Positions 13,654-37,806 of a DNA stretch of 37,878 bases are shown piece after piece. Under the pieces are notes generated by a model. The model worked only from the letters and a program-made list of their open reading frames with translations. It did not search any database and had not been told where the DNA came from. Source of the stretch: Promethearchaeota archaeon (GTDB taxonomy: Archaea > Asgardarchaeota > Lokiarchaeia > Sigyniarchaeales > SOKP01); assembly GCA_020344955.1 (NCBI GenBank), contig CP070831.1, forward strand, positions 2,050,456 to 2,088,333, given 5' to 3'. The position numbers were made by a program, and so were the translations under genes. Numbering within the stretch: the stretch's first letter is position 1; every line of letters begins with the position of its first letter.

Positions 13654-13688
13654 TGAAAAAATTTATATCTATTATTCTCATAAATTTT

Positions 13689-13759
13689 TCTGAAAACCCT
13701 TGCAAAGGGTAAGTTTCCTCTCAACTAACATTTATTTAAGAGGATCATTCCTTTTCAGA
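13689..13759 (-). promoter_or_regulatory. candidate SECIS element in the 3' UTR of Sec-hdrA
   Basis: Directly after the hdrA stop (13760-13762) the minus-strand RNA can form an outer stem UCUGAAAA/UUUUCAGA. Inside are two hairpins: UCCUCU/AGAGGA (arms 13739-13744 and 13716-13721) with an A-rich loop, and ACCCUU-UGC-AAGGGU (13696-13710). AUGA sits on the 5' side of the first helix, as in eukaryotic SECIS cores; the 3' side has AAC where UGAC would be expected, so the core is less canonical than the copy at 35590-35660. The two elements share length (71 nt), stem order and the AAGG-type side hairpin. Both genes upstream of them carry in-frame UGA. A convergent terminator is the alternative. Confidence 0.65.
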
Positions 13760-15796
13760 TTATGTTTGATAAGGAGCTAATTCTTCAATCTTTTTCATAA
13801 TAAGTTCAACAGATTCAACATATTCTTCCTTGTAATCAACTAAAATACTACAGATCCCTTTTATCTCTTCAATTATTTGTTTATCTCTGTAATATTTGAG
13901 ATCTATTGCTCGGGCAGGGCATGATGATACACATACTCCGCAACCTTTACATTTTAAGTCATCTATTTCTGCAATATTTGCTCCATTCACTCTTATTGCC
14001 ATGTAATTGCAGATTTTTTCACATCTACGGCACGCCATACATAAATTTTCATTTACTTCAGCTATAATTAATTCTTGATTTATTGTCTCTTTGGAAAGTA
14101 AAGTAGATGCTTTACTTGCAGCAGCTAATGCCGTAGATACTGAGTAAGGAATATTCTTTGGGCCTGCAGCACAACCACATATATAGATGCCCATATTATT
14201 AGTTTCTTGAGGTTTTAGGCATCCATGAATTTCAGATAAAAAACCATTCGCATCTTTTGCTATTCCTAAAATCTCAACAATTTTCGCTGTTTTTTTAGAA
14301 GGGTTCATACCAGTAGATAAAACAATTAAATCAGTATCCATAGTAATGAAATCATTTGTTAAAGTGGAAGAAGCTGTAACTTTTATTTTTTTTGAGATAG
14401 GATCTTTTCGAATATCTCCTACTTTTCCTCGAATCATCATTATCCCTGCTTCTCTTGCTTTTCTATAATATTCTTCATTTCTTTTATCCCATGTTCTCAT
14501 ATCTATATAAAAGATAACAATTTCCATATCTGGGTATTCTTGTTTTAATAATTGAGCATTTTTAAGAGCAACATTACAACATACTCCTGAACAATAGGGA
14601 TTTCCTTTTAAAGATCTTGAACCTACACATTGAATCATAGCTACTGTTTTTGGGACTTTTCCATCAGAAATTCTATATACATGACCACCTGTTGGTCCAA
14701 CTGGACTTAACATACGTTCTAGATCTATTTGAGTAATAACATCGGGATAAATGCCATACTTATATTCGTTATTTTTCATAATTGGATATTCGTCCCATCC
14801 CGTGGCAATGATGATAGCCCCAACTTTTAAATTTATATCCTCTGAAGCCATTTCAAAGTTAATTGCCTCAGCGAGACAAGTTCTCTGACAATTTTTACAA
14901 TCAATACATATGCTCTTATCAATTATGGCAATTTTAGGTATTGCTTGAGGGAATGGTATGTAAATTGCATTTCGTTCTCCTATACCTCTGTCAAATTCAT
15001 TAGGTACTTTTATTGGACATTTTCTCGTACATAATCCACAGCCAGTACACCTATTTTCATCAATATAACGAGATTTTTTATGTATTTTTACATTATAATT
15101 TCCAGGAATACCGCTGAATTCCTTAACTTCACTAAACGTAAATAACTTTATATTTGGATGTTTTGAAGTGCTAACCATAATAGGTGCAAGAACTCATATG
15201 GCACAATCATCTGTAGGATATATTCGATCTAATTGAGCCATTTTTCCGCCAATAGTTGCTTCTTTTTCGACTAAATATACATTTATTCCTTGGTCTGCTA
15301 GATCTAAAGCTGCATTCATCCCTGCAATACCAGCACCGATAATTAACACCGATTTTTCGACTGAAACTTTTTTATAAGGTATTATTTCTAATTCCCTAGC
15401 ACGATTTATCCCCGCTTGTACTAACCTTATAGCTTTTTTAGTAGTATTTCTCTTATTTCCTGAGTGAGTAAATGAACAATGTTCACGAAGATTAACCATT
15501 TGAAAGTAATATGGATTTAATCCTGCTTGAGATAGAACTGCACGATAAGTAGGTTCATGAATTTTTGGTGTGCAAGCTGCAACAACAACCCGATTAAGGT
15601 CTAATTCTAAAATGTCGTTTTTAATAATATTTTGTCCTGGATCACTACAAGTAAAATCATTTATTCGTGAGACAATAACATTTGGTAGAGCTTCGACATA
15701 ATCTCTAATTAGATCACAATCAACAGAAGCACTAATATTAACTCCTCATCTACAAATATATACTCCTATTCGCACTATGGTCTGTATCTCAGACAT
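13760..15796 (-). CDS. hdrA: HdrA selenoprotein with two in-frame UGA (Sec17, Sec201)
   Basis: From ATG 15796 (GGTGA five bases upstream) to TAA 13760 there is one 678-residue HdrA interrupted only by TGA at 15746-15748 and 15194-15196. Both fall on conserved Cys positions: GVYICR-U-GVNI (tandem HdrA here: LVCRCGINI) and DDCAI-U-VLAP (there: DCSLCILAP). Between them lie the FAD loop IIGAGIAG and GGKMAQLDRIYPTDDC. After them come ferredoxin motifs (CTGCGLCTRKCP, CIDCKNCQRTC), the CVGSR...CSGVCC cluster region and C-terminal CMACRRCEKIC and CKGCGVCVSSCP. Length matches HdrA, so this is not a pseudogene. HdrA is a known selenoprotein in Methanococcus and Lokiarchaeota. It stands alone, convergent with the other hdr operon. 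Confidence 0.88.
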
Positions 15797-35576: not shown

Positions 35577-35589
35577 GTATTAACAATTT

Positions 35590-35660
35590 ATACCAAAACC
35601 TTCGCAAGGTTGGTCATCCTGTCACTAATATTTTATAACAGGAATCACTCCATTCGGTAT
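35590..35660 (-). promoter_or_regulatory. candidate SECIS element with a complete eukaryote-like quartet
   Basis: The minus-strand RNA has outer stem AUACC/GGUAU (35656-35660 with 35590-35594), helix UCCUGU/ACAGGA (35638-35643 with 35617-35622) and a side hairpin AACCUU-GCG-AAGGUU (35597-35611). On the 5' side UGAU (35644-35647) and on the 3' side UGAC (35613-35616) directly flank the helix, giving U-C, G-A, A-G and U-U non-Watson-Crick layers as in the eukaryotic SECIS core. The helix can be extended by U-G, A-U and U-G, leaving AAAA in the apical loop, like the eukaryotic AAR motif. It lies about 50 bases downstream of the small gene with in-frame UGA. Same architecture and length as 13689-13759. 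Confidence 0.75.
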
Positions 35661-35712
35661 TTATTTTACAACATTAAATTTTGAAAAGTTCTAGGTGATT
35701 ATTGTTAGTCAA

Positions 35713-35871
35713 TTAACCAGGTCAAGTACCCGTACCAGCAGAAAGTACACTATATATTATAACTAATGTAATTATCGTTGCTATCACTGCTATAACCGTT
35801 GCTGCAATTAGATAAATTTTAATTTTTCTTTTTCTTAATTCCTTTAATTCAGTTTCGTTTAGAGATTCCAT
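35713..35871 (-). CDS. 52-aa single-span membrane selenoprotein with Sec near the C-terminus
   Basis: From ATG 35871: a charged head (MESLNETELKELRKRKIK), one membrane helix (about 19-44) and a short tail SAGTGT, then TGA (35722-35724), Pro, Gly and TAA. If the TGA ends translation the product has 49 residues; read as Sec it ends GTGTUPG. The SECIS-like element 50 bases downstream is the reason for reading it as Sec50. The positive charges before the helix place the tail outside the cytoplasm. The plan, one span and a Gly-rich tail with Sec within three residues of the end, resembles eukaryotic SelK and SelS (GGUGR, GGUG), but homology is not claimed. The function is unknown; the exposed selenol would be reactive. 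Confidence 0.65.
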
Positions 35872-35968: not shown

Positions 35969-36970
35969 TTAAGATTTTTTTCCTTCTTTATGCTTGAAAA
36001 TTGTATAGATTCCAACTAGGATTGTAAAAAATGCAAAAAATATCCATAACAATTGAACTTGAGAAATTATTTGCTGTAATATTAAAAGTGGAAAGTAAGG
36101 TAACCATAACTCTTGTCTAATTCTTAATATTTGAACTAGTAGTTTCATTAGAATAATAAATAAAGCAATTGTATCAACTCTTAGAATTTTAATTTTCTCC
36201 TTAATATAATCAACTCTATCGTATATTGAGCCTATAATGTAGATAAATAAGAGGAAATCAATGAAAAAGGAAAAAATATCATACCCAGAACTGTCATAGA
36301 ATATGAATTCTGCTAATAAATCAACTATAAGATAAAGTACATAAAATGATGTCAATAAGTTAAAAACAGAAATGTAAGCTGCTAACTTCTTTGTAAATAT
36401 TAATCTTGTCAACACGAATGCTAGTAATAGTAATCCAATCAAAAAAAGATTAAAAAAGACTCTTGTGATACTTGGAAATCCAAAAAACCTAACTATCAAT
36501 GATGTCAGCCACCAGTTCAATAGAAAAAATCCAACAAATTCAATTATCCTTGTAAATATTCTAGACTTCTTCTTTTCGTACAAGTAATTATCGATTTTAG
36601 TAGAAGTGTCCATACAAAATTTAAAAGCGAAAAATGCTGTAATTAAGACATTTGCCAAAAATGAGATTACAAAAAAGATATTAAAACCTATTATCCAACT
36701 GAAAATCCACATAACAGGCAACGTTAAAGCTGCTGCAATTATAATTATTATCCCAATTTTTTTAAAAGAACTAAAAAGTGAGATAATTAATAAAATAAAT
36801 GTAAAACCAGCTAAAATACCAAGAAAATAAAAAAAATATCCACTAAATGTGTAATATTTAAAGATATCAAACATAACTGTAAACATTAACCAGGAAATAA
36901 TGAACAGAATAACAATAATCAGTAAAAACGTCTTTTTCGACAAACTTTTTAAACCAGAAATAAACCTCAT
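35969..36970 (-). CDS. polytopic membrane protein of unknown function
   Basis: 333 residues with about nine or ten hydrophobic segments spread over the full length, few charged loops (DTSTKIDNYLYEKKKSR, YDRVDYIKEKIK) and a lysine-rich C-terminus. I recognise no family motif, transport signature or catalytic residue pattern. It is in the same direction as the small membrane selenoprotein gene, about 100 bases upstream of it, so the two might share a transcript; this is only positional. Confidence 0.6.
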   Translation of the reverse strand: MRFISGLKSLSKKTFLLIIVILFIISWLMFTVMFDIFKYYTFSGYFFYFLGILAGFTFILLIISLFSSFKKIGIIIIIAAALTLPVMWIFSWIIGFNIFFVISFLANVLITAFFAFKFCMDTSTKIDNYLYEKKKSRIFTRIIEFVGFFLLNWWLTSLIVRFFGFPSITRVFFNLFLIGLLLLAFVLTRLIFTKKLAAYISVFNLLTSFYVLYLIVDLLAEFIFYDSSGYDIFSFFIDFLLFIYIIGSIYDRVDYIKEKIKILRVDTIALFIILMKLLVQILRIRQELWLPYFPLLILQQIISQVQLLWIFFAFFTILVGIYTIFKHKEGKKS

Positions 36971-37173: not shown

Positions 37174-37806
37174 ATGTCTGAGGAACAAAAAGTTAGAAAT
37201 CGTTGGATTGTTGTTATTGGTGCTATCATGATTCAATTGGCCTTAGGCACAATATATTCATGGGGAACACTTACTATCTTTGTTAGTCCCTATTTGAATG
37301 AAATAAGAGAAGTTACAGTCTATATTTTTGGAGTAGGATTATTATCTTTTGCCATTACGATGATTTTTGCTGGTAAATTACAACAAAAATATGGTCCAAG
37401 AAATATTGCAATTCTTGGAGGAATATTAATGGGTGGAGGAGTTATTCTCTCAGCATTTATGACAACTTTTATAGGATTATTAATTACGTATGGAATTATA
37501 TTTGGGATGGGGATAGGATTTGGGTATGTGTGTCCTATAGCGTCAGCAAGTAAATGGTTTCCGGATAAAAAAGGATTTATTAATGGAATTGCAGTTGCAG
37601 GATTTGGAGCTGGATCTTTTATATTTAATTATGTGATCAAAGCACTTGCAAATCCAGGAGGTTTGGAGACTGACCATCCTAATTTTCTTTCAGCAATATC
37701 ACCAAATATTCCTCTAATGTTTATCATACTTGGAATTATATATTTAGTCCTAATAATTGGAGGAGCAATGACATTAAGTAATCCAAAGCATCCAAAATTG
37801 TGGTAG
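37174..37806 (+). CDS. MFS transporter, OFA (oxalate/formate antiporter) type, N-terminal half only
   Basis: 210 residues with six membrane segments. RWIVVIGAIMIQLALGTIYSWG, GKLQQKYGPRNIAILGG (the A-loop) and GIGFGYVCPIASASKWFPDKKG are typical of the OFA branch of the major facilitator superfamily. Full members have about 400 residues and twelve helices; this one stops with TAG after helix 6, at the central loop (LSNPKHPKLW). The frame stays open after the TAG to the window edge but does not read like helix 7. It may be a half-transporter, a pseudogene or a broken copy at a sequence edge. ATG at 37174 lacks a strong ribosome site. Confidence 0.75.
   Translation: MSEEQKVRNRWIVVIGAIMIQLALGTIYSWGTLTIFVSPYLNEIREVTVYIFGVGLLSFAITMIFAGKLQQKYGPRNIAILGGILMGGGVILSAFMTTFIGLLITYGIIFGMGIGFGYVCPIASASKWFPDKKGFINGIAVAGFGAGSFIFNYVIKALANPGGLETDHPNFLSAISPNIPLMFIILGIIYLVLIIGGAMTLSNPKHPKLW

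Follow-up and report, generated by a model that had tools for sequence, protein, structure and literature searches.

A candidate family of tiny single-span membrane selenoproteins with a UGA near the C-terminus in Lokiarchaea

The Small Gene and Its Downstream Element

The window analyzed here, a stretch of 37,878 nucleotides from the genome of a Promethearchaeota archaeon, carries on its minus strand a small gene (35871..35713) whose translation, MESLNETELKELRKRKIKIYLIAATVIAVIATIITLVIIYSVLSAGTGT-U-PG-stop, comprises 52 residues if an in-frame UGA is read as selenocysteine (Sec). This UGA (35724-35722, minus strand), the proposed codon for Sec at residue 50, is preceded by 49 codons, and only Pro and Gly separate it from a TAA (35715-35713, minus strand), the proposed real stop. 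Residues 1-18 form a charged head and residues about 19-43 a membrane helix, followed by the tail SAGTGT-U-PG; on the plus strand at 35713-35871, no corresponding gene was seen. An earlier note, made from the sequence alone, had described a 52-residue gene with a charged head, one helix and the ending SAGTGT-UGA-Pro-Gly-stop, and a SECIS-like element about 50 bases past the TAA; both descriptions held, with the addition of the strand, which it had left unstated.

About 95 nt upstream, and in the same direction, lies a gene for a 333-aa protein (35969..36970, minus strand) that has 10-12 hydrophobic segments and belongs to no known family. It ends in TAA, contains no in-frame UGA, and keeps its place approximately 50-100 nt upstream in nine loci of the genus; its AlphaFold model is poor (pLDDT 45), and a partnership with the small selenoprotein is conceivable but unproven. 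On the plus strand, an MFS transporter ORF of 210 aa (37174-37806) has about half the usual length, which could reflect either truncation of the gene or a protein of half size. The window also encodes a known type of selenoprotein, hdrA (13760..15499, minus strand), with an in-frame UGA (..TDDCAI-U-VLAP..), and thereby holds internal evidence for the use of Sec by this genome.

The element downstream of the small gene (35662-35585, minus strand) starts 51 nt past the TAA and folds as a three-way junction. It consists of a lower stem (ACCGAA/UUUUGGU), a kink-turn core with its 5' half GUGA at 35645..35648 (minus strand, from a pattern scan) and the 3' GA at 35615-35614, a 9-bp upper stem, an A-rich apical loop of 9 nt (AAAAUAUUA), and a second hairpin (ACCUU-GCG-AAGGU) on the 3' side. 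The eSECIS-like element of the Asgard archaea is defined by an [A/G]UGA..[G/A]A core, an upper stem of 7-15 bp and an apical loop of 8-20 nt with adenines (PMC11227280), all of which the window element meets with GUGA/GA, 9 bp and 9 nt; GUGA is the rarer form of the core in the family described below. Folded in isolation (72 nt), it gives a centroid structure with the three-way junction of the hdrA/vhuD-derived plan and a z score of -2.3 versus shuffled sequences, of which 3 of 200 were equally stable. Rfam at its gathering thresholds reported nothing in the window.

To identify the element by comparison, we used a covariance model (R1) trained solely on 22 elements in the 3'UTRs of hdrA and vhuD, known selenoproteins, of the genus, including that of the window hdrA (13683..13762, minus strand), which has the same plan. 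The alignment of these training elements supports the three-way junction, with the lower stem, the kink-turn with upper stem and A-rich loop, and the small 3'-side hairpin. The model matches the window element with 55.8 bits, a score among the best of the family. Throughout the 3.34-Mb genome R1 has eight matches, with the window element ranking fourth. Four of the matches belong to the window hdrA and to three loci of the hdrA/vhuD type, one of which has masked sequence; the others lie at the window small gene, at another small membrane gene, at a gene with two UGAs side by side, and at a vhuU-like gene. A readable gene containing a UGA precedes seven of the eight elements; ahead of the remaining one, the sequence is partly masked by N. 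R1 gave no match on eight decoy loci, and no comparable hairpin was found within 250 nt after any of 41 ordinary UGA-ended ORFs (0/41). It should be noted that the published Asgard model comprises a core, upper stem, apical loop, internal loop and lower stem, without an extra hairpin in its text (PMC11227280); the second 3'-side hairpin, conserved in the SECIS elements of this genus (window 35585-35662 and 13683-13762) and supported by covariation, is not mentioned there.

Homologous Loci and the Residues around the UGA

The first homologues, short ORFs of the same layout, came from a simple protein search against 58 related genomes; with profile searches of the class and phylum and inspection of the loci, the family grew to 46 homologous loci in 44 lokiarchaeal genomes from at least six genera. 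The UGA ends the ORF in all 46 loci, and the second in-frame stop is a TAA in 35 of them; among ordinary long ORFs from the same loci, UGA is the stop in 41 of 318 (13%). UGA as a genome-wide sense codon was ruled out, as ordinary genes end in UGA. Profile matches from other Asgard classes fall within long ORFs, where they have the appearance of unrelated membrane segments, so that the family is apparently limited to one class of Lokiarchaea. Neither Pfam nor NCBIfam contains a family matching the small protein (only subthreshold matches to membrane helices were seen), a scan of the window protein against genome contigs, from which records of its own genome were possibly excluded, returned no relative, and no phage relative was found. 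The neighbors of the main subfamily differ per genus and are kept only within a genus; the window copy shares its gene order with eight other genomes of its genus, and its ORF is intact. A common origin of all 46 loci is unproven, given that the proteins are short (about 50 residues) and mostly membrane helix, and that their neighbors differ between genera.

A SECIS-type element was detected in all 46 loci by pattern or model. R1 matches 41 loci (that of the window and 40 others) at E < 2e-5, directly past the UGA; four loci of one genus (g7) share the core in a hairpin that R1 does not match, and one further locus (f4) is a weak match. In the alignment of the family elements, both partners vary in 18 of 19 base pairs and pairing is kept in 94.7% of the cells, which none of 500 shuffles equaled; as a caution, the rows, one of them from hdrA, had been fitted to the model. 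The read-through frame mostly stops at TAA, between a few and about 35 nt ahead of the SECIS core.

The codons past the UGA were compared likewise. A Cys occurs at +2 in 26 of the 46 loci and within +1 to +4 in 38, typically as GGG-U-x-C, against an expectation of 2% per position for a Cys codon from base composition; the patterns seen are UAC, UGC, ULC, UPC, USC, UCC, UPSTC and UC-stop. This enrichment just after the UGA indicates that the codons beyond it are under selection in the family. Two loci place the Cys ahead of the Sec (GCGUGG), and six, among them the window copy with its tail TGTUPG, have no Cys before or after it; such Cys-free tails recur, as UPG in two relatives and as UG-stop in two others. 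Most members have an extension of 13-33 residues. Residues beyond U-x-C number from 0 to about 30 and are only weakly conserved, with a pooled pN/pS of 0.75 past the UGA versus 0.36 before it, which leads us to place the functional end at U-x-C and to regard the remainder as a spacer of variable length; a synonymous/nonsynonymous coding test of the long extensions was ambiguous, and we do not claim a function for the tail beyond U-x-C.

Taken together, the near-terminal UGA of the family is very likely read as Sec, on comparative evidence only. For the window copy itself, we consider a functional selenoprotein gene with the UGA read as Sec to be likely; this again is comparative evidence, resting on the SECIS element, the invariant UGA and the synteny with better-preserved relatives, and there are no expression or proteomic data. 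The suggestion in the earlier note of an undescribed membrane selenoprotein with near-terminal Sec is thus supported, and its placement among the archaeal relatives of eukaryotes held, since the relatives are Asgard archaea, the named matches being "Candidatus Lokiarchaeota." It had further stated that homologues without conservation past the UGA, or without the downstream element, would refute the idea, and neither was the case (Cys at +1 to +4 in 38/46, element in 46/46). A Cys-for-Sec form, which it had proposed to look for, was not found among the homologues in the 227 Asgard genomes searched. The Sec within three residues of the end, also claimed, holds for the window copy, where it is third from the end, and for a few others; it does not hold for most homologues.

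Selenocysteine Machinery, Topology, and Possible Function

The genome encodes SepSecS (E 1.6e-115), and a tRNA with the anticodon UCA lies 0.2 kb from it, with a score under the Rfam gathering threshold. This tRNA-like gene (G000:C1:1145218-1145292, minus strand, G000 being the genome of the window) has a 5' half atypical for a tRNA and was missed by ARAGORN. SepSecS, the UCA tRNA candidate and the other selenoprotein genes support, by comparison, the use of Sec by this genome; SelB, PSTK and SelD were not covered.

Several further UGA-containing genes were seen alongside R1 elements. A protein of 165 residues (G000:C1:2539809-2540303, plus strand) has two adjacent in-frame UGAs (HAD-UU-ADVMKE) with an R1 SECIS directly after it; it belongs to no known Pfam/NCBIfam family, an upstream Cys is invariant in seven aligned sequences, and, of the 83 genomes of the class, 61 contain matches, nearly every one of which has two or more UGAs. 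These proteins may represent an undescribed tandem-Sec family. A third small single-span ORF (G000:C1:239276-239377, minus strand) is UGA-ended (..KSEACPP-U-SSKG..) and has an R1 SECIS of 40.5 bits. At two loci (about 6568, plus strand; about 6414 and about 6883, plus strand), small two-span proteins have a UGA just past the first span (..TGVVA-U-GRI.., ..SGIWVVS-U-GEI.., ..SGLMA-U-GTQ..), followed by an R1 SECIS, and could be another type of membrane selenoprotein.

The topology of the small protein is predicted from sequence. The head is net positive in 33 of the 35 first members (the two others score zero), and the tail lacks K/R in 30 of 35, so that by the positive-inside rule the Sec end is predicted to lie outside the cell, as the earlier note had read from the charge pattern. 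A sister single-span type (G000:C1 about 572247-572540, plus strand, and further loci) was observed with a C-x-U or C-x4-U tail and an R1 SECIS; its tails include ..GDCDLPI-U.. and ..DDDCF-U... A CcdA-like gene is convergent with the sister subfamily gene in three genomes (G000, G003 and G006), is decayed in G012, and was not found in G015 and G009. CcdA proteins pass electrons across the membrane to outer thiols. The CcdA-like protein keeps both expected Pro-Cys motifs (TPC, IPC) in three genomes; its Pfam score is below the curated cut-off, and it is the sole DsbD-type match in the window's genome, where VKOR was not found. A search of gene neighborhoods found no conserved enzyme neighbor for the main subfamily.

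We propose that the lokiarchaeal eSECIS-like element in the 3'UTR of the mRNA would direct the insertion of Sec at the near-terminal UGA, with termination two codons on at the TAA. The product would be a single-span membrane protein whose short positive head faces the cytoplasm and whose one helix leads to a short, Gly-rich tail on the outside; this tail would end in the Sec, usually paired with a partner Cys (U-x-C). A stop at the UGA would cost only the end of the tail, and the activity thus presumably resides in the selenol. In terms of function, which is inferred, the tail may act as a membrane-tethered, outward-facing redox arm (a Sec/Cys selenenylsulfide) by which surface disulfides or peroxides would be reduced, with the electrons supplied by a carrier in the membrane, for which the only CcdA-like protein of the genome is one candidate. 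As CcdA moves electrons to outer thiols and adjoins the sister subfamily, such a surface selenol/thiol arm is our best guess, one that could equally well prove wrong. The link to CcdA concerns the sister subfamily and is not shown for the window gene; the genes are convergent, and the carrier is absent or decayed in some genomes. More tentative still, and in our judgment rather more doubtful than probable, is the wider idea that Lokiarchaea hold an overlooked set of such proteins (the U-x-C single-span type, the C-x-U subfamily by the CcdA-like carrier, and the two-span type), in which outer-surface selenol arms would be fed electrons through the membrane.

One rival reading is that translation of a small membrane protein simply stops at the UGA, with the hairpin serving as a transcription terminator or belonging to another gene. 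In its favor, just two codons follow the UGA in the window copy, the second hairpin with its U-rich 3' side resembles a terminator, and the end of a convergent gene lies 8 nt away from the element. However, the UGA is invariant in 46 of 46 loci and U-x-C is conserved, the element fits the hdrA/vhuD SECIS model with a full kink-turn and A-rich loop, and no other gene lies on the minus strand between UGA and element, the upstream gene being TAA-ended and free of in-frame UGAs; we therefore regard this explanation as very unlikely. It is also unlikely, if less so, that the family is real and the window copy is decaying, with the Cys and a good part of its tail gone and its use perhaps ended. The tail TGTUPG without Cys, the GUGA core and the lack of a long tail would fit with decay, but the strong SECIS score, the intact ORF, the synteny with eight other genomes of the genus and the recurrence of Cys-free tails argue against it.

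Two further alternatives accept the selenoprotein and differ in what it is. The Sec/Cys pair might serve at the membrane surface to bind or deliver selenium or a soft metal instead of taking part in thiol redox, which remains possible, if unlikely: The U-x-C, C-x-U and UCC tails might act as soft-metal chelators, and the main subfamily has no conserved enzyme neighbor. Against this, the motif is short and stands alone, with at most one partner Cys, the acidic Gly-rich tail offers no His or more Cys, and a CcdA-like thiol electron carrier adjoins the sister subfamily. True kinship with eukaryotic SELENOK/SELENOS, in turn, could be argued from the single span, the Gly-rich tail and the Sec third from the end in the window copy; layout, not sequence similarity, is also what unites SELENOK and SELENOS (PMC10650576). 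This seems very unlikely, given the lack of a Pfam match, the opposite predicted membrane orientation, the absence of a long basic cytosolic tail, and an Asgard survey without any eukaryote-specific selenoprotein family (PMC11227280). A membrane-anchored selenoprotein with a surface redox arm remains our preferred reading.

Comparison with Known Selenoproteins

Seven selenoprotein families have been published for the Asgard archaea, namely SelD, FrhA/VhuU, HdrA, FrhD/VhuD, Prx-like, AhpF-N-like and DsbA-like (PMC11227280). The small family is missing from these and from the 2026 review of prokaryotic selenoproteins as searched (PMC13188914); the 2016 Lokiarchaeota paper was outside this comparison. 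It shares with the seven families the Sec machinery and the eSECIS-like class, to the extent that a model trained on HdrA and VhuD finds the window element, but those families are soluble enzymes or subunits found by homology to known selenoproteins. Having no known homologue and no Cys form, the small family could not have been found by a homology-based survey, and it is invisible to gene finders. We conclude that this is a previously unreported family of tiny membrane-anchored proteins, widespread in Lokiarchaea, and that the known counts of Asgard selenoproteins are too low. As the Asgard selenoproteome has been used to trace the passage of Sec coding to eukaryotes (PMC11227280), it matters that the seven-family list is incomplete; the covariance model offers a direct route to the remaining selenoprotein genes.

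The definition of SELENOK and SELENOS comprises a single N-terminal span, a positively charged, Gly/Pro-rich tail in the cytosol, and a Sec at the second or third position from the end; SELENOS also forms a selenylsulfide with a Cys (PMC10650576). The window protein resembles them in its single N-terminal span, its Gly-rich tail, the Sec third from the C-terminus and the kink-turn SECIS in the 3'UTR; it differs in being at most about half their size and in a neutral or acidic tail that is predicted outside, and most members of the family have U-x-Cys and a longer extension. With no match to a Pfam selenoprotein family and no detectable homology to SELENOK/SELENOS, and with a different charge and predicted membrane side, we do not file it under them; the SelK/SelS-like plan suggested in the earlier note thus held for layout only and failed as homology. 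On the comparative evidence, membrane selenoproteins with near-terminal Sec exist among the archaeal relatives of eukaryotes, and surface selenol arms, if true, would give Sec a role that is not known from archaea and would parallel, independently, the single-span ER selenoproteins of eukaryotes.

Two other systems invite comparison. With the extracytoplasmic thiol proteins driven by CcdA/DsbD, the family shares a membrane-tethered outer thiol or selenol, and its sister subfamily adjoins a CcdA-like gene; it differs from them in lacking a thioredoxin fold, and the link is not shown for the window gene. Thioredoxin reductase has a C-terminal GCUG arm. The small protein similarly places a Sec and, in the family, a neighboring Cys on a flexible, Gly-containing C-terminal arm, but here the arm sits on a membrane anchor with no enzyme domain attached, providing a small, testable case of a Sec acting alone, outside a thioredoxin-type fold.
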